Origin: a virus | Length of the DNA: 61,959 nucleotides | Strand: one strand, 5' to 3' | IMG/VR virus record: IMGVR_UViG_3300050821_003702 | Span: 1 to 61,959 of that record | Part shown: positions 13,860-37,791 of the stretch, piece after piece | Layout of the letters: each line of letters begins with the position of its first letter | How positions within the stretch are numbered: position 1 is the first letter of the stretch | Notes under the pieces: model-generated | Told to the model about the DNA's origin: nothing | Database searches by the model: none | The model's input: the letters and a program-made list of their open reading frames with translations, nothing else | Made by a program: the position numbers and the translations under genes

Positions 13860-14510
13860 GTGCCAAGGCGCAAAAAAGTCAGAAGGTTTCCAAGATACCT
13901 GTTCAACAGCCGGGACAAGCTGGCAGAGAAGATCATCCGGCTGACGTTCAACAGCATGGCGAAGGAGCGGAACATCGACAGACGAATCCACAACATCGAT
14001 GTTTACAAAACCAACCGGGGCAAGAATGCCAAACTGACGTTCCTGCTACTGGGGCAGAAACTCAACAAGGCGGGCATAGACCCAGCGCTGTTCATCAAGG
14101 TCTGCGGGAAGTATGGGGCATTCAAGCACGCACGGTACATGCCGCATCCCAATTTCTTTCTTGGTGACAAGGCGTGGGAAGTCTTCCAGTGGCGGGTGAA
14201 GAGCGAGCAGAAGAAATACCCAAAGCGGGAGGACCTGCTGAAGTCGCAAGGGATGAAGCGCGACCAGGACATCCTCGAAGCGGTTGAGGACTCAACGAAA
14301 GTCTTCAGTTCGGCAGCAAAAGGAGGCCACCATCCAGATGTTGTGATGGCAGCAATCAAGCCAGAACTCAACAATTGGTTCGTGGCTGCCTACCTGCTAC
14401 ACCGGAAGGGGTGGTCATCTGTCCGCGAGTGTATGACGTATTTCAGAAAGAACAAACTCCTCAAAGTGGAGGCGGGAGAAATTCTCAGACATTCGGGCGT
14501 TCTATCCTAG
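13860..14510 (+). CDS. Protein upstream of replicative helicase; possible helicase loader
   Basis: A 216-residue basic protein from GTG 13860 (GAGGAGG ribosome site upstream). It begins with a Lys/Arg cluster and RFPR at residues 9-12, then is mostly helical. No Walker motif is present, so it is not a DnaC-type ATPase. Its stop lies 11 bases before the DnaB-like gene, and phage loaders often sit there, so a loader or origin-binding role is plausible but unproven. The motif GCGTTCTATC lies in its last codons, in the leader of the next gene. Confidence 0.5.
   Translation: MPRRKKVRRFPRYLFNSRDKLAEKIIRLTFNSMAKERNIDRRIHNIDVYKTNRGKNAKLTFLLLGQKLNKAGIDPALFIKVCGKYGAFKHARYMPHPNFFLGDKAWEVFQWRVKSEQKKYPKREDLLKSQGMKRDQDILEAVEDSTKVFSSAAKGGHHPDVVMAAIKPELNNWFVAAYLLHRKGWSSVRECMTYFRKNKLLKVEAGEILRHSGVLS
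14498..14507 (+). promoter_or_regulatory. Recurrent leader motif GCGTTCTATC, copy 2
   Basis: This copy is inside the end of the upstream gene, 24 bases before GTG 14522 of the DnaB-like helicase. Because it is read in different frames at different sites, conservation is at the nucleic acid level. Confidence 0.4.
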
Positions 14511-18599: not shown

Positions 18600-18828
18600 G
18601 GGATTCCGTGACGACCTCTGTGAAGCCTGCAACAAAGAAGTAGCCAACCACGAGACAGAGTATGGCATCCTCTGCGATGGATGTTATGCTCAAATCTTTC
18701 CAGAATTTCAACCCATTCGGCGTGAACTGTCCGCTGACTGGCTGCATCGTCCGACATCCCAAGGGAGTCAGGACAGAAAAGGAAACGAAAATGTTGAAGA
18801 GCAAAAAGCACCAAAAGAAGGAGTCTAA
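18592..18828 (+). CDS. Small zinc-binding protein (78 aa)
   Basis: ATG 18592 (MAKGFRDDLCEAC) overlaps the previous gene's end. Two CxxC pairs (CEAC and CDGC, 20 residues apart) form a zinc-ribbon or treble-clef-like site in residues 9-35; the rest is polar and probably disordered. The stop at 18826-18828 lies one base before the FtsK-like start, so the genes are coupled. Such small zinc proteins are unusually frequent in this region. Confidence 0.65.
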   Translation: MAKGFRDDLCEACNKEVANHETEYGILCDGCYAQIFPEFQPIRRELSADWLHRPTSQGSQDRKGNENVEEQKAPKEGV

Positions 18829-18829
18829 A

Positions 18830-20236
18830 GTGGCAAAGGAAGTTCTCGTTGGCGTGAAGTTGTTCGTCTGCAAGAAGTGCCCTGGCCTCGCTGGCCGTGA
18901 CTTCTACGTGGCTATCATGCGGACCCGCTGCTGCCTCTGTGGGCGCTTGATGGACCCGTTTGACCCGGAGTCCCTGGTCATATCTGATGCGAAGAGCAAC
19001 TACCCGAAGGGCGTGCAGCGATTCCCCCGCGAATTGGCGAGCACTCCGGAGCAGAAGCACGTGGTGGAGCTTATCCAGAACCGCACCAAAGACTTCGACT
19101 GCCCTGGAAAGGTCACCAACATTAACGTGGGCCCCATCGTCACGGAGTATGAATTTGCTCCAGACAAGTTCACCCGCCTGAAGCACGTGATGGGAATCAA
19201 CGAGGACCTGGCGATTGCACTGGAAGCTGAGAACATCAGCATCCGCAGGCTCCATGGCAAAGCAGCAATGTCGGTGGACGTTCCTAATAAGGTTAGGCAG
19301 GAAATTCGCTTCAGCGATTGCCTGAAGAACGCGATTGCTCACCGGGATGATATGGAACTACCCATCAACTTCGGCGTGCAGGCAAACGGACAGGCGTATG
19401 TAGAGGACCTAGCCCAGATGCCTCACCTCCTGATAGCCGGGACAACGGGTTCAGGCAAATCCGTATTCCTCAACAACGTCATCACCTCGCTGCTGGCTAT
19501 CCGTACCGCCCATCAGCTATGCTTTGTCATGGTGGACCCGAAGTCGGTGGAACTCTTCCACTATAAAGGTCTGCCCCACCTGATGCAGGACCCAGTGGCT
19601 GGAGTCTACGAAGCGCTGAACATCATGGAGAAGCTTATCCAGGAGATGAAGCGCAGGACCTCTAACCTCTTCGCCATGAAGGTCAAGAACCTCAAGGAGT
19701 ACAACGACAAGTGCAAGCGGGGAGACTTGAGCCCGCTGACTGGCAATCCTCTGACCGCTGAAGACCAGTGGCCGTACATCGTGGTAGTGATTGACGAGAT
19801 GGCGGACCTTATCCTCACGGAGAAGAAATCCTTCTCCGATAAGATGGCCCAGCTGGCTGCGATGTCCCGCGCTGCCGGTATCCACGTGATAGCCGCAACG
19901 CAGCGTCCGTCCGTTGACGTTCTCTCCGGGAGAATCAAAGTCAACTTTCCTGCCCGCGTAGCGTTCGGTGTACCGTCGCAAGCGGATTCCAAGACTATCC
20001 TCAACACAAAGGGTGCAGAGCAACTGCTCGGAAAAGGCGACATGCTCTTCATGTCCCCCATCCGTCCTGGCCTCCAGCGCCTACACGCTCCGTTCTGCGT
20101 CCAGGCAGATGTAGACCGCATCCTGAAGCTCAGCCTGGAAGTCGGCCACGTCCTGGCCGTGCCCGCTGATATGCTAACCCTGGAAGGGCTGGAGAAGTCT
20201 CCGGTGGACGCCTCCCCGAAAGGGATGGTGAACTGA
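18830..20236 (+). CDS. FtsK/SpoIIIE-type DNA translocase, soluble
   Basis: A 468-residue protein from GTG 18830, chosen because GAAGGAG lies 6 bases upstream and the upstream zinc gene stops just before. Residues about 10-45 hold a zinc-like site (CKKC, CCLC), and RFPR occurs at residues 64-67. The rest matches the FtsK motor: beta-domain sequence (VTNINVGPIVTEYEFAP), Walker A in GTTGSGKSV, Walker B in VVVIDEMADL, and the signature around ARVAFGVPSQADSKTIL. No membrane segments and no gamma domain are present. FtsK motors pump dsDNA; a phage copy could segregate, package or remodel phage DNA. The family is secure; the role is inference. Confidence 0.88.
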   Translation: MAKEVLVGVKLFVCKKCPGLAGRDFYVAIMRTRCCLCGRLMDPFDPESLVISDAKSNYPKGVQRFPRELASTPEQKHVVELIQNRTKDFDCPGKVTNINVGPIVTEYEFAPDKFTRLKHVMGINEDLAIALEAENISIRRLHGKAAMSVDVPNKVRQEIRFSDCLKNAIAHRDDMELPINFGVQANGQAYVEDLAQMPHLLIAGTTGSGKSVFLNNVITSLLAIRTAHQLCFVMVDPKSVELFHYKGLPHLMQDPVAGVYEALNIMEKLIQEMKRRTSNLFAMKVKNLKEYNDKCKRGDLSPLTGNPLTAEDQWPYIVVVIDEMADLILTEKKSFSDKMAQLAAMSRAAGIHVIAATQRPSVDVLSGRIKVNFPARVAFGVPSQADSKTILNTKGAEQLLGKGDMLFMSPIRPGLQRLHAPFCVQADVDRILKLSLEVGHVLAVPADMLTLEGLEKSPVDASPKGMVN

Positions 20237-26184: not shown

Positions 26185-26814
26185 ATGGAAACATTGGTCA
26201 GAGCGAAATATCAGGAAGTGGAAGTGGAAGAACTTTTCGGAGACATCGCAAGCAAAGCCGCAGCCAGCTTGGGATACAACCACGCTTTGGGGAAGAGTAA
26301 GGCGGACTCTGCCCTTGCTATTATCCACTCCTTGGACATCCACCCATTCACAATGGAGTCTGTTGAGTTGTATAAAGAGCAAGCAATGCATGCAGCGCTG
26401 AAGGCCAGGAGGCAGGCCAGTCTGATTTTCCTGGCACTGGCTGCCCTTCTGTATGGGATAGCTACCCCCTATGCCTACTCCCATTTTGCTAACTCACAAG
26501 ACATAGTCACCATCCCCTTGGCGATTGGCGCCATGTGCGGTTTGGGTGCCATCATTTTATTTTACGGGCGTGGAGATTGGCGCTGGGCTATGACCGAAAT
26601 CGAAAATTACAACTTGCCTATACCAATCCACGTCTTGCAAACGGCCCTCAGAGTCAAGGCAGCTATCCCAGGTTCCAAATTCCAGGTGGAGTATCTGACC
26701 CGAGAATATACTCAGGAGTGGCCAGACCCATTCCTGGTTCTGAATGTCGGAGATGCTTACTACTACCTGGAAGTTTGGGATGAGCCGAAATTTGAGGGGC
26801 GAAAGACAGTTTGA
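26185..26814 (+). CDS. Two-helix membrane protein of unknown function
   Basis: A 209-residue protein from ATG 26185 with GAGGAGGA upstream. Two adjacent transmembrane helices (about residues 75-100, LIFLALAALLYGIATPYAY, and 108-127, IPLAIGAMCGLGAIILFY) separate an N-terminal cytoplasmic helical region from a C-terminal domain of about 75 residues (FQVEYLTREYTQEWPDPFLV). It begins the unit after the terminator and is coupled to the PLP-enzyme gene (TGATG). A role in anchoring or host takeover cannot be told from sequence. Confidence 0.6.
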   Translation: METLVRAKYQEVEVEELFGDIASKAAASLGYNHALGKSKADSALAIIHSLDIHPFTMESVELYKEQAMHAALKARRQASLIFLALAALLYGIATPYAYSHFANSQDIVTIPLAIGAMCGLGAIILFYGRGDWRWAMTEIENYNLPIPIHVLQTALRVKAAIPGSKFQVEYLTREYTQEWPDPFLVLNVGDAYYYLEVWDEPKFEGRKTV

Positions 26815-27632
26815 TGCCCAAACACAACAACGCCCTCGTGTTTGGCACTCCCGTCCGGAAGCATGACGGGATTTATGTCAAGCACGAGGAAGAATGTTCC
26901 ATCGGCGGGTGGCCCCCCTTCAGCAAATGTCGGGGGGTACTCGCCCATATTCGCAAGAGACCCGAGAAAATCATCGGAGTCCTCGACACCTTCCACTCGC
27001 AGGCAGGCTGGGCTGTCGCTGCCGCCTGCCAGCTGCTCGGAAAGAAATGTATCAACTTCTGGCCGAAATATGCGAAGGACAAAGATGGAGAGCTTCGCAG
27101 GCCCCAGAGGAAATCCAAGAAGCTCGGAGCCAAGCTTGTCGAGCTGCCGGCTGGCAGGTCTGCTATTCTCTACCATCAGGCAAGAGCCTACATGACGGAG
27201 CACGGCGGATACCTGATGCCCAATGCGCTTAAGCTCCCAGAGAGTATCACCGAGACCGCCAACGAAGTCAAGGTGACAGGTACCAGTAAGTTCCGGTATG
27301 TCGTTATCCCTATCAGCTCCGGAACCATCGCAGCAGGAGTCCTCAAGGGGTTACAGGACAAGAATGAGTTCCCCAAAATCTATATTCACCTCGGCTACAG
27401 CCGCAGCCACGACGCGGTGAGGAAGTACCTCGAAGCTGCTGCTCCGAAATACCCCAGCAGGAAAATCAAGCTGGTGGATGAAGGCTATGCCTACTCAGAC
27501 GTGGCGCGGAAAGGGCCAACACCAGACTTTCCTTGTAACATTTATTACGATTTGAAGTGCTGGAGATGGCTCCTCCGGAAGCGGGACAAATTCCACAAAG
27601 GCAAAATTCTGTTCTGGAACATAGGTGCGTAG
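26814..27632 (+). CDS. PLP-dependent enzyme, fold type II (tryptophan synthase beta-like)
   Basis: A 272-residue protein. The pattern of a Lys near residue 38 (FSKCRG), then IIGVLDTFHSQAGWAVAAAC with its small-residue helix cap, then VVIPISSGTIAAGVLKGL, a Gly-rich phosphate cup, matches fold-II PLP enzymes such as ACC deaminase and cysteine synthase. Lys38 would carry PLP as a Schiff base. Phages with hypermodified thymidine carry PLP enzymes that trim amino acids attached to the base, and this gene opens a cluster with the other pathway types. Fold is moderately sure; substrate is inferred from context. Confidence 0.65.
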   Translation: MPKHNNALVFGTPVRKHDGIYVKHEEECSIGGWPPFSKCRGVLAHIRKRPEKIIGVLDTFHSQAGWAVAAACQLLGKKCINFWPKYAKDKDGELRRPQRKSKKLGAKLVELPAGRSAILYHQARAYMTEHGGYLMPNALKLPESITETANEVKVTGTSKFRYVVIPISSGTIAAGVLKGLQDKNEFPKIYIHLGYSRSHDAVRKYLEAAAPKYPSRKIKLVDEGYAYSDVARKGPTPDFPCNIYYDLKCWRWLLRKRDKFHKGKILFWNIGA

Positions 27633-28583
27633 ATGAAACTTGACTGGGAAGGCATCACATTTGGCGCAGAGCTGGAGTTTGCCGACATCGACACGCGAGG
27701 TCCACTCCCATACGACGATGTTGAGTGGGATTTTCGTGATTACTCTATCTGCAACTCCAACGGAGTGGCCAACGACCCGAAGAAAAAGCTCAACCGCTAC
27801 GGGAGTGAAATCCACATAGGGCCAAAGCGCACGCCTATGAGACTCGTGGACTTGGCGATGGATGTTATCAAGCTCCACCCGGAAGCGAACGTCAACTGGT
27901 CAACCAACCTTCACGTCCATATTCGGCTGCCCGGATTGCGGGATGATTTGAAAAGCCTCAAAAGGTTGGCTATGTACATCCGGGCTTTTGCCCCAAGCAT
28001 GTACGAGAGGATTGACCCTATCCCGGAACCTCCGAAAGTTTGCTACAGGTCTGTAGACGTACCGGAATTTGATGGCATGTGGCGACGCTATAAACGGCGC
28101 AAGAGGTCCCATCATTATCAGGTCAGTGACGCTGTATACCAGAAGCTCATCGACGCGAAAAGCCCCCAGGACTTCCTGAATGCTCACGCGCCGTTCTCAG
28201 CAAAGACTGGCCTCCAATGGCATCTGGTCCAGAGGGCCGGAGTGAATCTAGCCCACCTCCTGAAGACAGATACTATAGAATTCCGCTGCTTTACAATGTC
28301 AATAGAGTGGCGGAAACTCTACAGTGCGTTCCGCTGGCCGTGGCTCTTTCTCCGCGCCGCACTAATCTCCAGAAAGAACGTCCACCAGATTCTGGCGTCT
28401 CATCCGAATCTCGTCTTTCAGAAGTTCCACCCATACGACTACAAGCAGGACGCGATATTCCAGCAGACCCGTCTAGAGCATCGGACCCGGAGCGAGGTAG
28501 CAGCTACCCTTGAAAAGCTTATCCGGGAGAAGGCTATCCGAAGGGCCGATATAGGCGGGGAGGGCTATCCGTCCGTCCGGTAG
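27633..28583 (+). CDS. Amidoligase-family enzyme (COOH-NH2 ligase-like)
   Basis: A 316-residue protein with spaced acidic and basic motifs of the amidoligase superfamily: ITFGAELEF near the start, GSEIHIGP at about residue 53, STNLHVHIRL at about 91, and DTIEFRCF at about 213. These families form amide bonds between carboxylates and amines using ATP. Within a base-modification cluster it may attach an amine or amino acid to a modified thymidine. Assignment is by motif pattern from memory; a profile search would confirm it. Confidence 0.6.
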   Translation: MKLDWEGITFGAELEFADIDTRGPLPYDDVEWDFRDYSICNSNGVANDPKKKLNRYGSEIHIGPKRTPMRLVDLAMDVIKLHPEANVNWSTNLHVHIRLPGLRDDLKSLKRLAMYIRAFAPSMYERIDPIPEPPKVCYRSVDVPEFDGMWRRYKRRKRSHHYQVSDAVYQKLIDAKSPQDFLNAHAPFSAKTGLQWHLVQRAGVNLAHLLKTDTIEFRCFTMSIEWRKLYSAFRWPWLFLRAALISRKNVHQILASHPNLVFQKFHPYDYKQDAIFQQTRLEHRTRSEVAATLEKLIREKAIRRADIGGEGYPSVR

Positions 28584-28673
28584 GCTAAAACCCCTCCCTG
28601 AGCCCCCTAAATGCAAGGAAAGGGCTTATCCGGGAAGGTTAGAAGGCCCCTAATAGGGCCGGAAAGGGGTATT

Positions 28674-29105
28674 ATGAAGGTCCTATTTATCTGCACGGCT
28701 AACCTCTACCGTAGCCAAGCCGCAGCTGCAATAGGGAAGGTTGTAGGGCTGCAAACCCAGTCGGCGGGAGTCTACGGGGGGAAGTTCGGGCGGAAGGTCC
28801 CTGAACGCCTCCGGGAGACCCTAGCTGCGATGGGATACCCCCTACCGGACTGGGAGAAGTCGAAGCTTGTAACCGAGAAGGAAATCGGGTGGGCCGATTC
28901 CATCCTTTATATGATTCCCAACCACCTCGACCGATTGCAGGAGAAGTTCCCCGACTGTCCGCACCGGAAGTTCGGCTGCCTGGGGGAGTTCCTCCTCCCA
29001 CCCATTCCCGCTATCCCAGACCCCATGTTTTTGAAGGGGCAGAAATGCACCAGGTCCATCCGCCTCATCGAGCAGGCGGTATCGAACCTGAAAAGGTGGA
29101 CGTGA
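28674..29105 (+). CDS. Low-molecular-weight protein tyrosine phosphatase-like protein
   Basis: A 143-residue protein starting MKVLFICTANLYRS, where CTANLYRS fits the C-x5-R-S phosphate loop of LMW phosphatases, located at residues 7-14 as in the family. The late general-acid Asp is probably in IPAIPDPMF. ATG 28674 follows GGAAAGGGG. A near-perfect GGCCC/GGGCC hairpin lies in the leader at 28645-28660. Given the kinase and pyrophosphorylase-like genes nearby it might act on a phosphorylated nucleotide or protein; the target is unknown. The stop overlaps the next ATG. Confidence 0.75.
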   Translation: MKVLFICTANLYRSQAAAAIGKVVGLQTQSAGVYGGKFGRKVPERLRETLAAMGYPLPDWEKSKLVTEKEIGWADSILYMIPNHLDRLQEKFPDCPHRKFGCLGEFLLPPIPAIPDPMFLKGQKCTRSIRLIEQAVSNLKRWT

Positions 29106-29911
29106 TGATGGGTTGCGTTGAATTCGGAAAGCAGTTACTAAAGACTGAGGACCTGGACCCCATCTACATCATCGCCAACAAGAACACTCTACCAAAAAAC
29201 CAACTTAGGAGATTTTTGTTGGCTTACTGGTGGTTCTATCACGCTGGCGTCGCATCCTACCTCTCTGAGAAGGAGGAAACCGAATTCTTCGACAAGGCTC
29301 TCACCCTCGTTGAGGGAACACGAGCACCACGAGGGACAGAACGTAGACACTTCCGGGGAGACAAGGCGAAGGTTGCCATCCAGAAATTCATGTTCACCTA
29401 CGGCCAGCCGGAGAATGCTATCAGGCACCTCCTTGATAGAAAGCGGACCAGCAAGGACTTCATAGACTTTGTCAAGAAGGAATGGGTCATGTTCGGACCC
29501 TGGATTGGCTTCAAGGTCGCAGACATGGTGGACCGCTGCCTTGGAGTTCCAATACAGTTCAAACCATCTGAGCTTGAACTCTATGATTCTCCAAAAAAAG
29601 GAGCTTGGGAAGCAGCGCAGAAAATGGAGGAGCTGTGGAGTGAGAATCAGGATGACCCGGCTCCAAGTACGCAGGAAGTAGTAGAAGCTCTCATCCCAAA
29701 ATTCAAGAAGTACAAAGCCCCGCCATTCTATGACCGGCAGGTTGGCGTACAGGAGGTGGAGACTATCCTCTGCAAGTGGCACAGCTATCGCGGAGGACAT
29801 TACCGCATTGGGAAAGATATAGTGGAAATTCGTGAGGCTCTCAACTGGCATCCGACAGAGACTTCCGAGAAGCTTTTGAAACTGATGCCGAAGGAAGTGC
29901 AGCACAAGTAA
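29105..29911 (+). CDS. aGPT-Pplase-like protein (thymidine hypermodification)
   Basis: A 268-residue helical protein. ATG 29105 overlaps the upstream stop (TGATG); the same frame is open further upstream but overlaps the phosphatase gene. Features include FLLAYWWFYHAGVASYLSE, PRGTERRHFRG, and GPWIGFKVADMVDRCLG, a helix-hairpin-helix-like segment as in DNA glycosylases. This resembles the alpha-glutamyl/putrescinyl thymine pyrophosphorylase families described in phages with modified thymine, which replace a pyrophosphorylated hydroxymethyluracil with an amine or amino acid. The neighbouring kinase, radical SAM and thymidylate synthase homologues are the expected partners. Identification rests on recalled motifs plus context. 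Confidence 0.6.
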   Translation: MMGCVEFGKQLLKTEDLDPIYIIANKNTLPKNQLRRFLLAYWWFYHAGVASYLSEKEETEFFDKALTLVEGTRAPRGTERRHFRGDKAKVAIQKFMFTYGQPENAIRHLLDRKRTSKDFIDFVKKEWVMFGPWIGFKVADMVDRCLGVPIQFKPSELELYDSPKKGAWEAAQKMEELWSENQDDPAPSTQEVVEALIPKFKKYKAPPFYDRQVGVQEVETILCKWHSYRGGHYRIGKDIVEIREALNWHPTETSEKLLKLMPKEVQHK

Positions 29912-29932
29912 TTTTGGGTAGAGGCAAATGCA

Positions 29933-31327
29933 ATGCATGATGAAAACACTTACGACCTATTAGATGAAGAAGGCAAGTATAAGTTTTTCCACCGAGCAGA
30001 ACCGCGTCAGGCGGAAGGTCCTGTCGAGGTTGACGAAGAGACAGGAATGCGATTCCAGCATTGGGACATCGGTATGGTCAGAAACGCTGCCGAGGATAAC
30101 CGGAAATCCGTGAAGGTTTTCCTAGACCCTATCCCTCACATCATCATTCCGGATGCCAAACCACTCCAGGGTTGGTACAAGGCAAAGTTTGAGCCGAAGG
30201 GGGTGCGCCCAAGACCTTGCATGACAGAATCCGTGTTGACAGAACCTTACGGAGGCACTTGCTCCGTGGGTTGTGGGTTCTGCTACATCAACGCGGGAGT
30301 CCGGGGATACCGGGCACAGGGACTCACCACAGTCCCTCATAACTATGGGGAGCAGGTCGCCAGACAACTGAAGCGGTGGAAGACTTCAGCCGCAGGGTAC
30401 ATCTGCTCCTTCATAGACCCATTCATTCCTCTAGAGAAAATCTATCACAACTCCCAGGGATGCGCGGAAGCATTTGACCGGGAAGGCCTGCCAGTCTATT
30501 TTCTCTCCCGCCTCAAGTACCCGGACTGGGCTTATGACTTGTTAAGGCGGAATCGCTATTCCTACGCCCAGATGTCTATCAACACCAGCAGCCCAGAACA
30601 GTGGAAGAGGCTTTCCCCCTGGGCCATCAAGCTGGAGGATATGATTGACCAGGTACGGGCACTCCACAAGGCGAAAATCTATATCTCCATCCAGTGTAAC
30701 CCAATCATTGCTGGTGTGACCGACAACGACAACATCTGTAACCTGATTCACGTTCTAGCCGAGGCAGGAGCGGACCACATCATCTTCAAGTTCGTGGAGA
30801 CTGCGTACTCCTACAAGGCAGCTCTCATTGACAAGATGATTAAGCAGTTCGGGGATTATGGCAAAAAGTTCGGGGAGCTGATGACCTGCAACATCGGCGG
30901 ACAGGCTACCATTGACGAGGAATACCGCCTGCACGCGTTAGATAAGTATACGAAGGAGTGCCGGAAAGCCGGCATCACGATGGCGACCTGCTATGAATAC
31001 AAATTCGAGCGGGACGAGGACGGCAAGATAACCAGCAGGACTGGGGTGAGCGTGGGCCGCGACTACCTGACAGCAGACCAGTGCCACGGCCATCGAGTTC
31101 CCCTCTTCACCCGCGATGACGAAGGGGAGTTCAAGGAAGTAGAGGAATGTCCACCGTCCGGATGCCTCCACTGCGCTGATGATCATGGTGGAGTCGGAGC
31201 CTGTGGGTCAAAGCTCTTCAGCGCGGCAGGGGCACTCAGGAGTTCCGACTACAAGCATTCCGTGTATGACAAAGAGGCCACCAGCGGTAGTTTGGTACAA
31301 ATTTCACCGATGAGGTTTCCAAGATGA
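29933..31327 (+). CDS. Radical SAM enzyme
   Basis: A 464-residue protein. CSVGCGFC gives the C-x3-C-x2-C iron-sulfur motif of radical SAM enzymes at about residues 103-110, followed by a TIM-barrel-like body (IYISIQCNPIIAGV, ADHIIFKFVETAY). Near the C-terminus CPPSGCLHC and later GACGS could bind an auxiliary cluster or zinc. The last four residues are RFPR. Radical SAM enzymes in phage base-modification clusters rearrange or cleave modified thymidine side chains, the most likely role here; spore-photoproduct-lyase-like DNA repair is an alternative. The next gene overlaps by 4 bases (ATGA). Confidence 0.85.
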   Translation: MHDENTYDLLDEEGKYKFFHRAEPRQAEGPVEVDEETGMRFQHWDIGMVRNAAEDNRKSVKVFLDPIPHIIIPDAKPLQGWYKAKFEPKGVRPRPCMTESVLTEPYGGTCSVGCGFCYINAGVRGYRAQGLTTVPHNYGEQVARQLKRWKTSAAGYICSFIDPFIPLEKIYHNSQGCAEAFDREGLPVYFLSRLKYPDWAYDLLRRNRYSYAQMSINTSSPEQWKRLSPWAIKLEDMIDQVRALHKAKIYISIQCNPIIAGVTDNDNICNLIHVLAEAGADHIIFKFVETAYSYKAALIDKMIKQFGDYGKKFGELMTCNIGGQATIDEEYRLHALDKYTKECRKAGITMATCYEYKFERDEDGKITSRTGVSVGRDYLTADQCHGHRVPLFTRDDEGEFKEVEECPPSGCLHCADDHGGVGACGSKLFSAAGALRSSDYKHSVYDKEATSGSLVQISPMRFPR

Positions 31328-32022
31328 GTGATTTGGCAGTTATAGGCGATGCGATTCTCAGTCCAATCAGAAAGAGGTTCCCCCGCACACACCGATTCCC
31401 GCGCCTCCATCGGAAGCATATTGTCATCAACATCCGGGGAACAAACGGTTCTGGAAAGACCACGCTGGCGCGGACCCTTCTGGAGAAGTTCAAAGGCGTC
31501 CCTCTCGAAATCCAGAGGATTGGCGGTGACAAATTAATCGTGGGATACTGGCTGAACACTCCGGGGGTGCCAACATTCCTGGTTGGCCCTTACCGCATTA
31601 CCACTGGAGGCTGTGATGCCATCGGACCCGTAGCGGAGGCAGAATCTATAAAGCCTTTCGACTACATATGCAAGCTCATTCGGAATTCCTCGAAAGCAGG
31701 GAATATTGTATTCGAGGGGGCCATCGTTGCAACGGTCACGCAGCGGTGGGTAGACCTCGCAAAGGACCTTCCCAACACCCGTTGGATATTCGGGTTCATG
31801 GATACTCCGCTGGAGAAATGTCTGAAGCGGGTAGCCAAGCGCCGCGAAATCCGGGGAGACCCGAGACCACTGGACCCTAACAAGTCCGTTATCCCGAAGC
31901 ACAAGGCAGTTCTGGGGAGCGAGAAGCGGCTGAAGGAAGTGGGCATGGATGTCCGGCAAATCAATCACCGGGATGCCTTGAATACAGTTCTGAGATGGTT
32001 AGGAGAGACCGATGGCCACTAA
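31324..32022 (+). CDS. P-loop kinase, HMUDK-like (5-hydroxymethyl-dU DNA kinase candidate)
   Basis: A 232-residue protein. An N-terminal tail carries RFPR twice (residues 18-21 and 24-27, RFPRTHRFPR) before the kinase core. Walker A is RGTNGSGKTT, and a later strand (IFGFMDTPLEKCLKR) and arginine-rich lid (VAKRREIRGDPRP) fit a small-molecule or nucleotide kinase. In hypermodifying phages a kinase phosphorylates hydroxymethyluracil in DNA as the first step. The neighbours make that role likely, but general nucleotide kinase activity cannot be excluded from sequence. Confidence 0.7.
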   Translation: MSDLAVIGDAILSPIRKRFPRTHRFPRLHRKHIVINIRGTNGSGKTTLARTLLEKFKGVPLEIQRIGGDKLIVGYWLNTPGVPTFLVGPYRITTGGCDAIGPVAEAESIKPFDYICKLIRNSSKAGNIVFEGAIVATVTQRWVDLAKDLPNTRWIFGFMDTPLEKCLKRVAKRREIRGDPRPLDPNKSVIPKHKAVLGSEKRLKEVGMDVRQINHRDALNTVLRWLGETDGH

Positions 32023-32359
32023 CGTGCAACAGCAGGAAGATTCAACAAGAGGCAGTTTCGTTCCCCGAGGGAAGTGCAAGGAGTGCGGGAAGGAATGGGG
32101 GATGTACCAGAACGAGATTGACTTCTTCAAGGCCCTCCAGGAGAAGGACCCCAAAATCCAGCTCCCAAAGCGCTGCACGGAATGCCGGAAGAAAAAGAAG
32201 ACCACCGACATCTCGACTGTCATCACTTCCCTTGAAGGTATGGCGGAGAAGTCCCGCATGGAAGCCTTCTACACCTACAAAGAGGACCAGCTGGCCGATG
32301 AGCTTCTGGAGCAGGCCAATGCCCTCCGGCGGTATCTCGGAGCCAAGCGGGAAAACTGA
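32012..32359 (+). CDS. Zinc-ribbon protein (115 aa)
   Basis: A 115-residue protein with CKECG at about residue 22 and CTEC at about 55 (LPKRCTECRKKKK), matching a probable zinc-ribbon family in which a first CxxC is followed by a helical spacer and RCxxCR. The remainder is helical and charged. It overlaps the kinase stop by 11 bases and ends at the start of the next gene, so it is part of the modification operon. It may be a nucleic-acid adaptor. Confidence 0.65.
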   Translation: MATNVQQQEDSTRGSFVPRGKCKECGKEWGMYQNEIDFFKALQEKDPKIQLPKRCTECRKKKKTTDISTVITSLEGMAEKSRMEAFYTYKEDQLADELLEQANALRRYLGAKREN

Positions 32360-33261
32360 TGGATTACAAACCCCTGTTGCGATTCATCCTTGAACGCCAC
32401 GCAATCTACAGACGGAGGCAGGAAGGCCTGCCGAAACCGTGGACCCGTGACAAAATCCTCCAGCAGTATCGCTTCTGTAACGTGTACCGCGAATTGGATA
32501 CAGTCACCACCTGGATAGCGAAGGCTTGGCGGGAGCCGCATAAGGATGACCCGGACCTCTGGTTTGCTATGTGCGTGGCGCGGCTAGTTAACTGGCCAGA
32601 TACTCTCGCGGTGTTGAGGTATCCAATCCCTTGGCACCCACAGCACTTTATAGAAGTCCTAGAGAGACGGAAGGGACTGGGGGAGAAAGTCTTCACCGGA
32701 GCCTACATGATTCACGCAGGGCCAGATAACATCGGCAAGGCCCGATACCTAGCAGCAGAAGTCCTCAGCCCACTATGGCAGGATAGGGAGAAAGTCCGAC
32801 CTGTTGAAGATGACCGCTTGTCAGACTTCTACACCCGCCTTTCCGGATACAAGGACATGGGCAGCTTCATGACTGGACAAGTCGTTGCTGATGTGAAATA
32901 TGTAAGGCCCTTGCTCTGTGCGAAGGATTGGTGGGCGTGGGCAACGCCAGGACCGGGGAGCCAGCGAGGGTTGAATCGCGTGATGGGGAATGATGTGAAG
33001 GCTCCATGGAAGCGAACGGATTGGCAGAAGTGTCTCGGCAAGCTCCAGGAGAAAATCAATAAGAAGGTAACAGAAGCAGGATTCCCAAAGCTCCACGCCC
33101 AAGACATACAGAACTGCTGCTGCGAGTGGGACAAATACGAGCGAGTGCGACTGGGAGAGGGGCGGCCACGCTCCCTCTACGATGGCACTGGTGATATCCA
33201 GGATACTCTCCGCTTTCCACGCTCTCTTAAGCGTTCTATCTATTCGGGAGCGAACAAATGA
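32359..33261 (+). CDS. HMUDK-hel / aGPT-Pplase-like helical protein (thymidine hypermodification)
   Basis: A 300-residue protein. The N-terminus (LERHAIYRRRQEGLPKPWT, then QYRFCNVYRELD) closely matches, from memory, the helical domain linked to 5-hmdU DNA kinases, in which RRxxGxPxPWT and YRFCNVxRExD are hallmarks. Later GPGSQRGLNRV and AQDIQNCCCEWDKYER fit the same glycosylase-like fold. These proteins act with the kinase and pyrophosphorylases in making hypermodified thymidine. RFPR occurs at residues 285-288. The stop overlaps the thymidylate synthase homologue start (ATGA). Confidence 0.7.
   Translation: MDYKPLLRFILERHAIYRRRQEGLPKPWTRDKILQQYRFCNVYRELDTVTTWIAKAWREPHKDDPDLWFAMCVARLVNWPDTLAVLRYPIPWHPQHFIEVLERRKGLGEKVFTGAYMIHAGPDNIGKARYLAAEVLSPLWQDREKVRPVEDDRLSDFYTRLSGYKDMGSFMTGQVVADVKYVRPLLCAKDWWAWATPGPGSQRGLNRVMGNDVKAPWKRTDWQKCLGKLQEKINKKVTEAGFPKLHAQDIQNCCCEWDKYERVRLGEGRPRSLYDGTGDIQDTLRFPRSLKRSIYSGANK
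33231..33240 (+). promoter_or_regulatory. Recurrent leader motif GCGTTCTATC, copy 5
   Basis: Located within the last codons of the preceding gene, 27 bases upstream of ATG 33258. Copy 4 is in the terminator loop at 26123. Confidence 0.4.
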
Positions 33262-34418
33262 AAACTTACAAGGGGAAAGGGCTGGGCGACATGTATCTTG
33301 CCTTAGTCCGAGAAATCACCAGGAACGGGAAGGAGATTCCTACCAGGCACGGACCCTGCCTGGAACTGGCAGAGCCTGTCTGCCTCGAATACGAGGGGCC
33401 AGGGCATTGCTGGATGGTGATTCCGGGCCGTGTCTTCAATCCATTCTTTGCACTGGCAGAGGTTGTCTGGATTCTTTCAGGCAACGGGAATGTGGAGTGG
33501 ATATCATACTTCAACTCGAACATGCGGAAGTTCGCTGATGAAGGGAAGGAAGACTTCCACGGAGCCTATGGGCTGCGGATACGGAAGTGGCCGAATAACT
33601 ACTGTAGCTGGATGCATTTGGACCAGATAGAGTGGGCCGTGAAGAAGCTTCAGAAAGACCCGTATTCCCGTCAGGCGGTGATAAGCCTCTGGGACCCAGA
33701 TAGGGACAACTACATTCCCTCCAACGATTATCCCTGCAACAACCTCATCTACTATCGGCTGCGGGACGGAGTTCTATATCAGACAGTCGTGCAGAGGAGT
33801 TGCGACCTCATCTGGGGAGCGCCGCACAATGCAGTTCAGTTCTCCCATATTCATGCCTACGTCGCTGGGGCACTGGGGGCGAGAATCGGCAAGCTGACTT
33901 ATGTCATTCAGAATCTCCACTACTACCTGGAGCTTTACAAGCCCACTCTTGCGAACCTGATTGCGAAAGCCTTCGATGAGAATGAGCAGATGTACAGGGC
34001 AACGGTGAAGGCCCTCGCTGTTCCGAGCTTCTCTCCAGTCAATGAGCGGAGTTTCGAGATTGCCAATGAATCTGTAAACCAACTGCTGTCCTCGGAAGGG
34101 GATGACCTTGTTGGATTCTACCGCAGACAGCGTGGCCCCAAGGCTAAAGCCTATTACTGGCAGGCGCTAATCCCAGAGATGCTCTGGATTTACCGGATGG
34201 TGAAAGAGACTCCAATCGGAATGGGGTTGGGAATCTGTTCCTACATCATGGCCCTCCCGGACCCGCTGTGCGAGCTGGTACTGATGTATTACGAGGACAA
34301 GACTTACGGAATTGCTAAAGAAGTTCACTCCACCTGCGTGAGGATGCTCGATGAAGAAAAGGAAAAAGACAGGGCCAGCAAAGAAGGGCAAGAAGGTACG
34401 CAGAACGCAGCCAGCTAG
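33258..34418 (+). CDS. Thymidylate synthase homologue, probable dUMP hydroxymethyltransferase
   Basis: A 386-residue ThyA-family protein. ThyA landmarks align: the Glu/Trp segment AEVVWILSG (Glu68), catalytic Cys160 in DYPCNN, Arg180-Ser181-x-Asp183 in QRSCDLIWG exactly 20 residues on, Asn191 at +31, and a late LHYYLELY for the His-x-x-Tyr region. The residue after the catalytic Cys is Asn rather than the usual His, and the protein is about 100 residues longer than ThyA. Phages with hydroxymethyluracil use such homologues to make hmdUMP. The clustering with modification genes favours hydroxymethylation over thymidylate synthesis, an inference. Confidence 0.8.
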   Translation: MKTYKGKGLGDMYLALVREITRNGKEIPTRHGPCLELAEPVCLEYEGPGHCWMVIPGRVFNPFFALAEVVWILSGNGNVEWISYFNSNMRKFADEGKEDFHGAYGLRIRKWPNNYCSWMHLDQIEWAVKKLQKDPYSRQAVISLWDPDRDNYIPSNDYPCNNLIYYRLRDGVLYQTVVQRSCDLIWGAPHNAVQFSHIHAYVAGALGARIGKLTYVIQNLHYYLELYKPTLANLIAKAFDENEQMYRATVKALAVPSFSPVNERSFEIANESVNQLLSSEGDDLVGFYRRQRGPKAKAYYWQALIPEMLWIYRMVKETPIGMGLGICSYIMALPDPLCELVLMYYEDKTYGIAKEVHSTCVRMLDEEKEKDRASKEGQEGTQNAAS

Positions 34419-34707: not shown

Positions 34708-35177
34708 TGAGCAACGAGGATTACTTCAAGGCGAGAAACGCTGCGTTGGAGAAGCTGGTAGGGAGTGTCAATCAACAACAGGTGGGTGGGGGTCACTACA
34801 AGCTCCGGGCTTTCCAGCACTGGGATTTTGTTCTAGCCAATGGCCTTGGCTATTTTGAGGGACAAATCACGAAGTACATCTGCCGCTGGCGAGAGAAGAA
34901 TGGGGTGGTGGACCTCGAAAAGGCCATGCACTATTTGGCCAAGCTCATTAGCGCAGTTCGGGAAGGTAGTACCAGACCGCCTAGTGATACCCGATATGCT
35001 GCGAACCTGACGGAGCTTTCAACATCTTACCCCTCTATGGGGCTGAATGAAATGGCGGTAATCAGAATCCTATGTGTCTACGTTACAGAATCGGAATTGA
35101 GCAGAGCCTTCTCGTTGCTCGAAGTGGTTCTCCAAGACGCCAAAAATGCCATCCCTCAACATAATCCGAAAGCCTGA
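34707..35177 (+). CDS. DUF3310 family protein
   Basis: A 156-residue protein. GGGHYK followed by QHWDFVLANGLGYFEGQITK and YICRWREKNGVVDLEKAMHY is the hallmark of DUF3310 (SaV-like), widespread in phages beside nucleotide-metabolism genes. Function is not established. The usual family protein is 60-110 residues; here a C-terminal helical extension of about 60 residues is added. It overlaps the polymerase start by 32 bases, consistent with co-expression. Confidence 0.85.
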   Translation: MSNEDYFKARNAALEKLVGSVNQQQVGGGHYKLRAFQHWDFVLANGLGYFEGQITKYICRWREKNGVVDLEKAMHYLAKLISAVREGSTRPPSDTRYAANLTELSTSYPSMGLNEMAVIRILCVYVTESELSRAFSLLEVVLQDAKNAIPQHNPKA

Positions 35178-37791
35178 CGAGTTCTGCAAGCCTTGTCAGC
35201 TCTATCAGACCTGTAACACTCCCATCATGAACGGGGAGGGGAGTGAGCATCCAGATATTCTCTTCATCGGTGAGGCTCCTGGTGCCGATGAGGATGAGCA
35301 GGGCTTCCCGTGGGCCGGGAGAGCAGGTGTAATCCTGCGGGAAGCAATCGAGGAAGTTGGTATAGACCCGAAGCGGTGCCGGTTCAGCAATGCAGTCCGC
35401 TGCCGGCCACCGGAGAACAAGCTTCCAGCTAGTGCCATCAGCCATTGCCGCCCACATATCCTCCGCGAGATACGTGCTGTCCAGCCGAAGGTTATAGTCC
35501 TCCTCGGAGCCACCCCGCTCAAGAGCATCCTGAATCGCCAGGGGGTGATGAAGCTCCATGGCGAGACTATCGTGGGGCCATGGAAAATCGTCATATCTTT
35601 CCACCCTGCGTGGTACCTCCGCAACGAGACTCCAGAAAACTACAAGAAGTTCCTGGCAGCGCTGAAGCTCGCCAAGCACCTCGCCTACCCGAGGAAAAGT
35701 GAAAGCCGGGAGAAGTTCGAAAAGATTGTAGTGCAGGACGAGAAGACCCTGAAGGAAGTCGTAGACACCGTCAAGAAATCGAAATACCCGGCAACAGACG
35801 TTGAAGGTAGTACGCTCTCCCCCTATGCGAAGCACCGGAAGCCAGAGCTTGGCTGTGTAGGATTCTCCTGGGGTGACCGGATTGGAGCCTATCTGCCAAT
35901 ATCCTCCAGAGTTGGTCTGGGCAAATGTCTTTCGGCAGAGGCATATCTGGAGGCAATGAAGGAGTTGTGGGAGGACCCGGACATTGATTGGCTGGCGCAC
36001 TACGGAAAGTACGACTACTGCTATGCTGGAGTTCTCCACAACATCTGGCTGGGCGGCAAGCGTGGCTTCTATTACGCTGACACAGAGCTGATGGCCTATT
36101 GTCTCGATGAGAAGCGCGGCGGGAAAAGTTTGAAGGACCAGGCAGCCTTCATCGGTATGCTCGATTATGACCAGCCCAAGCGCCAATACGCTTTGGAGCA
36201 TCCAGAGGCCAACGACAAGGCTGGCGGGAATATCCTTCTAATCCCCTGGGATATCCTCTCCGACTACAATATCAAGGACTGCATAGCTTGCCGCCGATTG
36301 TTCTTCCACCTCCGTCCGAAGCTGAAAGAGCAGAAGCTTTGGGACCGGCCATTCAAGTTCCCTGTAATGTACCACCAGTTCACAGCTGCGATTCAGGAAA
36401 TCAACGGTGTCAAACTGGACCTGGAGCGGAACAAGAAGCTACGTAAGGAATACAAGCATCTCATCAAGGAGGAAGACAACAAGCTTGCGAACTTTGGGGA
36501 GATGAAAAAGCTCCAGCGCTGGCAGGACAACAATCTTCTTGAGGAGCTGATGGAGCGTGTGGCGAGCTACAAACGCCCAGTTCCGGACCCCAAGAAAAAA
36601 GTCTTCGAACTGTTCGAGGCGAATAAGGAGCCAGTCAACCTGGGCTCCCCGGAAGTCAAGCGGCATCTGGTATTCAACATCCTCGACTACGAGCCACTTT
36701 GGAAAACCCCGTCAGGCAAGTTTGATTCAGCATCCCGAGAGGTCCTGGAGAAGCTCAACGCAAAGCGGAAAAACCCCGTCCTTACGTGTATCATAGAACG
36801 AAGTGAGCTTGCTACCCTCAAGAGCAAATGCGTGGACCCGATTCCCAGCTGGGAAGGGACGGATGGAAAAACCCACACGACCTACAACGTGGATGGGCAG
36901 GTAACAGGCCGTGTATCCAGTGAGGACCCTAACCACGAAAATCTCCCGAAGCGGACACCGAGGGCGCCAGGGCTAAGAGAGCAGTTCCAGGCTTCTCTCG
37001 ATGGTATCATGGAGCAGGATAGCAAGCAGGTTGAGATGCGCCTGTTCGCTGACCGCGCCAAAGACGATGTAATGATTCAGGAGTTCGCTGATGGTAAGGA
37101 CCCGCATAAGATGGGAGCCATGGCGGGATTCGAGATAACACCGGAGCAGTGGGACAAGCTCCCCCCCGAAGAGCAGAAGATGAAGAGAACGGATGCCAAA
37201 TCCATGGTGTCCTTCGGAGTCCTCTATGGCCGGCAGGCTCCAGCCTTAGCAGAAGACTTCCAGAAGTCAGAGCGGTGGGCCAGGAAATTCATCGACAGGT
37301 ACTTTGCCAAATACGATGACTGTCTAGCCTACCGCCTGGACCGCGAGAAGTACATCAAAAAGGAAAAGATCGTGTACTCCCATTTCTTCCGGCCACGAAG
37401 GCTGCCTGAAGTGGACAGTGATATTGAGTCCCAGGTCGCTGAGGCAGTCCGTCAGGGAATCAACGCGCCGATTCAGGGAGATGCCTCTGATATCACCTGG
37501 TGCGCAGGCTGGCGGATGATTAGGTGGCTTCAGAAATACAAGATGCGTTCGAAGTACATCATTACGGTACACGACGCTGGATACATCGACTACCACCATA
37601 AGGAGATTGAGGACATCATCCACCAGCACCATCTCTTCATGACCGACCGGAAGTGGTTCGAGAAGATGACTGGCTGGTATTGCGAGGTCCCGCTGGACAC
37701 GGATTGTTTCCTGGGGCCAAGTCTGGGGAAGATGACAGAGCTGGAGCACAAGGGCGGTGGGGAATTCGTAGTCCCAAGTCAATTCGAATAA
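35146..37791 (+). CDS. Uracil-DNA glycosylase / family A DNA polymerase fusion
   Basis: An 881-residue fusion. Residues 1 to about 185 are a type 4-like UDG: Cys residues for an iron-sulfur cluster (CKPCQLYQTC), GEAPGADEDEQGFPWAGRAG, and the His motif in SFHPAWYLR. Residues about 205-395 are a DnaQ-like 3'-5' exonuclease (TDVEGSTLS, LAHYGKYDYCY, DYNIKDC). Residues about 430-881 are a PolA domain: motif A QDSKQVEMR, motif B RTDAKSMVSFGVLYG, motif C VHDAGYID at about 808, where the usual HDE has become HDA. SPO1-type phages with hydroxymethyluracil also have a UDG-polymerase arrangement. This would be the replicative polymerase. Confidence 0.88.
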   Translation: MPSLNIIRKPDEFCKPCQLYQTCNTPIMNGEGSEHPDILFIGEAPGADEDEQGFPWAGRAGVILREAIEEVGIDPKRCRFSNAVRCRPPENKLPASAISHCRPHILREIRAVQPKVIVLLGATPLKSILNRQGVMKLHGETIVGPWKIVISFHPAWYLRNETPENYKKFLAALKLAKHLAYPRKSESREKFEKIVVQDEKTLKEVVDTVKKSKYPATDVEGSTLSPYAKHRKPELGCVGFSWGDRIGAYLPISSRVGLGKCLSAEAYLEAMKELWEDPDIDWLAHYGKYDYCYAGVLHNIWLGGKRGFYYADTELMAYCLDEKRGGKSLKDQAAFIGMLDYDQPKRQYALEHPEANDKAGGNILLIPWDILSDYNIKDCIACRRLFFHLRPKLKEQKLWDRPFKFPVMYHQFTAAIQEINGVKLDLERNKKLRKEYKHLIKEEDNKLANFGEMKKLQRWQDNNLLEELMERVASYKRPVPDPKKKVFELFEANKEPVNLGSPEVKRHLVFNILDYEPLWKTPSGKFDSASREVLEKLNAKRKNPVLTCIIERSELATLKSKCVDPIPSWEGTDGKTHTTYNVDGQVTGRVSSEDPNHENLPKRTPRAPGLREQFQASLDGIMEQDSKQVEMRLFADRAKDDVMIQEFADGKDPHKMGAMAGFEITPEQWDKLPPEEQKMKRTDAKSMVSFGVLYGRQAPALAEDFQKSERWARKFIDRYFAKYDDCLAYRLDREKYIKKEKIVYSHFFRPRRLPEVDSDIESQVAEAVRQGINAPIQGDASDITWCAGWRMIRWLQKYKMRSKYIITVHDAGYIDYHHKEIEDIIHQHHLFMTDRKWFEKMTGWYCEVPLDTDCFLGPSLGKMTELEHKGGGEFVVPSQFE

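Follow-up and report, generated by a model that had tools for sequence, protein, structure and literature searches.

A phage thymidine hypermodification operon whose amidoligase may acylate the amine of the modified base

The DNA analysed here, referred to below as the window, is a 61,959-base virus record from IMG/VR (IMGVR_UViG_3300050821_003702), in which nine plus-strand genes occupy positions 26814-34418. Six of them resemble the thymidine hypermodification genes of Pseudomonas phage M6, and the presence of an amidoligase and a low-molecular-weight phosphatase (LMWP) beside them raises the question of what an amide-forming ligase does in such a locus. A first-pass annotation had named eight of the nine proteins and had taken the amidoligase and the phosphatase as a hint of a novel final base. 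All eight proteins were present, with their families confirmed by profiles or relatives; the ninth, a Zn-ribbon protein (32012-32359), was missing from that gene set. The comparative evidence presented here strengthened the hint. The answer that we favour on balance, as far as genes alone can tell, is that the operon performs post-replicative hypermodification of thymidine in the phage's own DNA and that the amine thus made is capped by the amidoligase. The final product would probably be an N-acyl-aminoethyl uracil, an amide-linked base.

The main support for this reading came from the genes that accompany the amidoligase in other viruses. Viral contigs were searched with the amidoligase alignment only, without regard to context, and the 32 loci retrieved were annotated by hidden Markov models and BLAST; the contexts are those of metagenomic fragments, so the absence of a gene from a fragment is weak evidence. 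Thymidine clusters with the 5-hydroxymethyl-deoxyuridine (5-hmdU) DNA kinase HMUDK or the transferase ADDT made up 29 of the 32 loci. ADDT was present in 27, and two further loci were short fragments with a flavin lyase, HMUDK and its helical partner HMUDK_hel (HEL). Of the others, two, from one phage, carried a pyridoxal phosphate (PLP) enzyme and another radical S-adenosylmethionine (SAM)-like protein, and one carried QueF. A flavin oxidoreductase was found in 21 of the 32 loci, and that of phage Simon matched the solved flavin-dependent lyase 8z2o (E 7e-62), which we take to come from the work of Wen et al. No flavin lyase was found in the window by tblastn, nor by a second genome search, which gave no positive control. 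When the radical SAM alignment served as the query of an independent scan, 5 of the 43 loci found carried the amidoligase (L038, L040, L043, L048, and L078, which is the same as L034), and in L034, L038, L040, L043, and L048 it stood alongside both radical SAM and PLP enzymes, as in the window, whose closest relative is L038.

Two of these contexts may represent additional routes to an amine. In L006 (1598-4795), L007 (8290-12321), and L009 (6263-9876), ADDT, a class-II glutamine amidotransferase-like protein, the amidoligase, and LMWP lie together, the amidotransferase of L007 and L009 being called by its MCG start only; an HMUDK-like kinase is also present in the L006 and L009 clusters. Judging from these gene sets, ammonia released from glutamine may be a third source of the base amine. 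In L029 (7035-9915), and also in L036, the PLP enzyme and the amidoligase adjoin a cysteine-rich radical SAM-like protein without any Pfam match, which is possibly another amine-making route; ADDT was not found in the 59-kb record of L029.

The phosphatase follows the amidoligase closely. LMWP was present in 27 of the 32 amidoligase loci, as compared with none of the 38 radical SAM loci lacking the amidoligase. With the window, Simon, Vibrio, and extra radical SAM loci also counted, the association gave a Fisher p of 1e-13, and 4e-9 after duplicates were removed by hand. LMWP without the amidoligase did not occur in the sets compared. This distribution supports LMWP as the partner of the amidoligase and not of the kinase. 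In the window, LMWP (28674-29105) matched PF01451 above the cut-off (E 1e-10) and kept the active site, with the cysteine and arginine of the CX5R loop (CTANLYR) and the aspartate of the DP motif.

The amidoligase is also found beside genes for a deazapurine. QueF produces 7-aminomethyl-7-deazaguanine, and the L019 enzyme kept its cysteine and the ESKSLKLF motif, the NADPH motif of preQ0 reductases. In L019, the amidoligase and LMWP are located between QueF and QueE, with QueC in the same record, and no match to thymidylate synthase (TS), ADDT, or HMUDK_hel was found in its 109 kb. In Vibrio phage 2.275.O, the amidoligase also adjoins QueF. Phages Dp-1 and HVTV-1, which encode QueF, carry dPreQ1 in their DNA (PMC6884629). 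TGT/DpdA was not detected with PF01702 in any record, including those with QueF, DpdA being possibly too divergent for this model. In the amidoligase tree, L019 was nested inside the branch of the flavin-lyase (5-aminomethyl-dU) loci with support of 98/94 and 99/95; at least three changes are needed to account for the radical SAM/PLP context. The feature that the 5-aminomethyl-U, 5-aminoethyl-U, and 7-aminomethyl-7-deazaG contexts appear to have in common is an alkyl primary amine on the base, which makes ATP-dependent acylation of this amine the simplest reading. We give about even chances to a broader proposal, in which the amidoligase, usually with LMWP, is a transferable module for acylating DNA amines that serves any of these three primary-amine pathways and here yields N-acylated (aminoacylated) 5-aminoethyl-dU.

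The amidoligase gene (27633-28583) encodes a predicted Amidoligase_2-type ATP-dependent carboxylate-amine ligase, which we propose as the base-amine acylase. The identification was made through relatives and structure, since the window protein alone was not recognised by Pfam, PHROGs, or NCBIfam, the three profile sets used to assign protein families. Among the 28 aligned sequences, 23 matched PF12224 (Amidoligase_2), with a best E of 2e-8. A scan with the single window sequence retrieved nothing, and an alignment with the Simon and Vibrio sequences was required. The AlphaFold2 model had a pLDDT (predicted local distance difference test) of 92.8; its first-ranked Foldseek matches in the PDB were GshF, glutamate-cysteine ligase (GCL), glutamine synthetase (GS), and YbdK, and named phage amidoligases were matched in BFVD. 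Residues G11, E13, E15, E59, H96, R201, E216, and R218 were invariant in all 28 sequences. The ExE motif, E59, the HxH motif, R201, and the ExR motif were likewise kept throughout, except for the first histidine of HxH (25 of 28), in an arrangement that we take to be that of GS catalytic sites. The natural reading of the model and the conserved residues is an ATP-dependent carboxylate-amine ligase with the GS/GCL fold. The protein thus shares the fold and the GS-like residues of Amidoligase_2 but differs from that family in lying below detection itself and in its proposed substrate, a nucleobase amine in DNA. No sequence match was found in the PDB with the amidoligase profile, and none in bacterial genomes, which were scanned with two peptide patterns only and give a weak negative.

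The other genes of the operon point to the amine on which the ligase would act. The PLP and amidoligase genes abut with no gap; overlaps occur between LMWP and ADDT (1 base), radical SAM and HMUDK (4), HMUDK and Zn-ribbon (11), Zn-ribbon and HEL (1), and HEL and TS (4), and the sole gaps are 90 nt upstream of LMWP and 21 nt upstream of the radical SAM gene. Since six of the eight junctions overlap or abut, the nine genes read as a single operon, mostly translationally coupled. A 22-kb megablast search against phages gave no match.

The first gene (26814-27632) encodes a PLP-dependent fold-type-II enzyme (PF00291, E 1e-14), predicted to be a decarboxylase. It belongs to phrog_7093 (E 9e-72) together with its M6 homologue gp52, shares 49% identity with it, and has the SKxRG lysine kept in all six sequences compared. 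The protein at 29105-29911 had been called aGPT-Pplase-like, an older label for the broad group that includes it; the name is corrected here to ADDT glycinyltransferase, as indicated by PF18724 (E 4.5e-12), by phrog_6364, shared with M6 gp51, and by the solved phage glycinyltransferase 8z2m (E 9e-56), its specificity for glycine and for pyrophosphorylated 5-hmdU (5-PPmdU) in DNA being predicted. The radical SAM enzyme (29933-31327; phrog_9252, E 1e-159) has 52% identity to M6 gp53, with the CxxxCxxC cysteines C110, C114, and C117 invariant across five relatives, and is predicted to isomerise the DNA-bound glycine. The P-loop 5-hmdU DNA kinase HMUDK (31324-32022; PF18748, E 1e-7; phrog_800, as M6 gp54) has the Walker A sequence GTNGSGKT, and its helical partner HMUDK_hel lies at 32359-33261 (PF18723, E 3.8e-46; phrog_2396, as M6 gp55); both of these Pfam matches were above the cut-off, and the families expected at 31324 and 32359 were thus borne out. 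Between the two lies the small Zn-ribbon protein, with CxxC...CxxC and a match to zf_Tbcl below the cut-off (E 8e-5); its homologue adjoins HEL in L038. The last gene (33258-34418; PF00303, E 4.8e-28; phrog_5131, as M6 gp58) encodes a TS homologue, a predicted dUMP 5-hydroxymethylase. It shares the PCN cysteine, RSxD, and the NAV asparagine with M6 and Simon, and a phmmer search of the PDB ranked CMP hydroxymethylases at the top, with ordinary TS close behind. Some PHROG names in 26814-32022 are misleading, the radical SAM enzyme being listed as "DNA repair photolyase", the 5-hmdU kinase as "terminase small subunit", and the PLP enzyme as "threonine dehydratase".

The PHROGs shared by six window proteins with M6 gp51, gp52, gp53, gp54, gp55, and gp58, together with the match of ADDT to 8z2m, support an M6-type core leading to 5-(2-aminoethyl)-dU (5-NedU), the base contained in M6 DNA (PMC6449724). 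The six families have 32-52% identity to M6, and nearly the same gene order as in M6/YuA is found upstream of the family A polymerase. Unlike M6/YuA, the window adds the amidoligase and LMWP, has the PLP gene before ADDT, and has the Zn-ribbon gene between the kinase and its helical partner; the additional ligase speaks against untailored 5-NedU as the final base. The gene set had been likened to both ViI and M6; the match points to the M6/YuA type and not to the ViI type. Salmonella phage ViI also starts its hypermodification from 5-hmdU (PMC6449724), but it makes a different final base, 5-(2-aminoethoxy)methyl-dU (5-NeOmdU), and the radical SAM and PLP enzymes of the window are of the M6 family, the genes having been compared with M6 only. 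Simon-like clusters, with glycinyltransferase, flavin lyase, amidoligase, and LMWP, resemble the window in having the amidoligase-LMWP pair in a 5-hmdU cluster; in them a flavin-dependent lyase replaces the radical SAM and PLP enzymes, and the expected amine is therefore 5-aminomethyl-dU.

From these homologies, the following pathway can be proposed. By analogy with M6, the TS homologue would make 5-hydroxymethyl-dUMP, which would be incorporated in place of some thymidine, and the kinase pair would then phosphorylate 5-hmdU in the DNA. ADDT would replace the pyrophosphate with glycine, the radical SAM enzyme would shift the linkage from the nitrogen to the alpha carbon of glycine, and the PLP enzyme would decarboxylate the product to 5-(2-aminoethyl)-dU. 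The order of glycine transfer, radical SAM reaction, and decarboxylation is reportedly that of Lee et al. (2021). The logic put forward earlier, in which hmdU is phosphorylated in DNA, substituted, and trimmed, is thus supported gene by gene, and phosphorylation of 5-hmdU in DNA followed by substitution is described (PMC6449724). In a sixth step, which is new and is suggested by the comparative evidence, the amidoligase would consume ATP and form an amide between the free amine and a carboxylic acid, the latter probably an amino acid. The positive charge at the amine nitrogen would be lost and the group enlarged, probably as a protection against restriction enzymes. In the seventh and weakest step, LMWP would remove a phosphate that the amidoligase reaction introduces or leaves behind, as might happen if the acyl donor were phosphorylated; that LMWP clears phosphate from the donor or the product is a guess that we hold weakly.

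Several results weigh against the acylation reading. The window amidoligase was unmatched by PF12224 at E 0.1, below the Pfam cut-off, and the Foldseek template modelling (TM) scores in the PDB were weak, about 0.4 at best. The subfamily is on average not basic, so its charge gives no hint of DNA binding. LMWP is missing in four of the six records with radical SAM, PLP, and amidoligase genes (L038, L040, L043, and L034), and the proposed seventh step would therefore be dispensable. The chemistry of the third to fifth steps is taken from what Lee et al. reportedly described in 2018 and 2021. In other phages, amidoligases occur with ATP-grasp, GGCT, and glutamine amidotransferase (GATase) proteins in modules to which peptidoglycan modification has been ascribed (PMC11945000). 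This last point, together with the absence of the amidoligase from most radical SAM and PLP loci, would suit a core that makes 5-NedU as in M6 beside an amidoligase-LMWP pair that is an unrelated passenger, for instance in peptide or cell-wall modification. We consider this unlikely: a context-blind search returned base-modification clusters almost throughout, with QueF or PLP genes in the remainder, the amidoligase lies between PLP and ADDT within a coupled operon, and no ATP-grasp or GGCT protein was found among the listed open reading frames, profiles not having been used for these two. That the ligase instead activates the carboxylate of the DNA-bound glycine-derived group and couples ammonia or another amine to it, giving a carboxamide, is quite unlikely. 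Ammonia can be used by GS-fold enzymes, and the amidotransferase adjoining the amidoligase and ADDT in L006, L007, and L009 is a possible source of it, but the flavin-lyase and QueF contexts are generally expected to give an amine and no carboxylate, and the window and its relatives retain the PLP decarboxylase, by which this carboxylate would be lost.

The phosphatase allows two more explanations. Having a kinase and a phosphatase in one operon, the phage might use LMWP to reverse the phosphorylation of 5-hmdU and so tune the number of modified sites independently of the amidoligase. This is very improbable, as LMWP was absent from all 38 radical SAM loci without the amidoligase, most of which have ADDT and many the HMUDK pair, and was present in L019, a record without HMUDK_hel or ADDT. 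A role as a phosphatase of 5-PmdU (phosphorylated 5-hmdU) was likewise rejected on distribution as probably incorrect, because LMWP tracks the amidoligase and occurs in L019, a locus in which the search for a 5-hmdU kinase partner was negative. An N-kinase activity of the GS-fold protein, reversed by LMWP as the phosphatase YwlE reverses the arginine kinase McsB, with the base amine phosphorylated and not acylated, is extremely improbable. The arginine phosphatase YwlE was among the best PDB matches of the LMWP profile (E 2e-25) and guanidino kinases have the GS fold, but Amidoligase_2 is a predicted ligase family, Foldseek placed GshF, GCL, GS, and YbdK first, LMWP is missing from several amidoligase loci, and alkyl phosphoramidates are labile.

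Should acylation of the base amine be correct, ATP-dependent amide ligation would join glycine transfer, radical isomerisation, decarboxylation, and flavin cleavage as a DNA-hypermodification chemistry, and one enzyme family would act on both pyrimidine and deazapurine scaffolds. New bases would then be predicted in many uncultivated phages, DNA could be acylated in a programmable manner, and another means of evading restriction would be suggested. No description of such a pathway or of a class of amide-linked DNA bases was found in the open-access papers searched. The reading is directly testable because the amidoligase-LMWP pair is also encoded by the sewage phage Simon, whose genome has been sequenced (PQ683277).

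Some other features of the window were observed. The DNA polymerase A (35146-37791) has a fused N-terminal uracil-DNA glycosylase (UDG) domain (PF03167, E 1e-31) and an exonuclease domain, and the M6-like phage Lydia has a separate UDG gene near its own cluster. The peptide RFPR, with a degenerate DNA core of about GNTTYCCNMG, occurs 22 times over the six frames, 17 times on the plus strand, and often near the ends of unrelated proteins (sites at 13884, 19019, 24188, 31313, 31375, 33211, 39811, 42009, 42676, 48045, 48385, and 58314); four copies are present in L038 and none or one in the other loci checked. The portal protein (PF05136, 54510-58472) is interrupted by an intein-like stretch that starts with CLAGDTEIAMLDG and ends with SIGVFSHN. 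An FtsK/SpoIIIE-type DNA translocase with an alpha domain (18662-20236) is also encoded in this phage genome.

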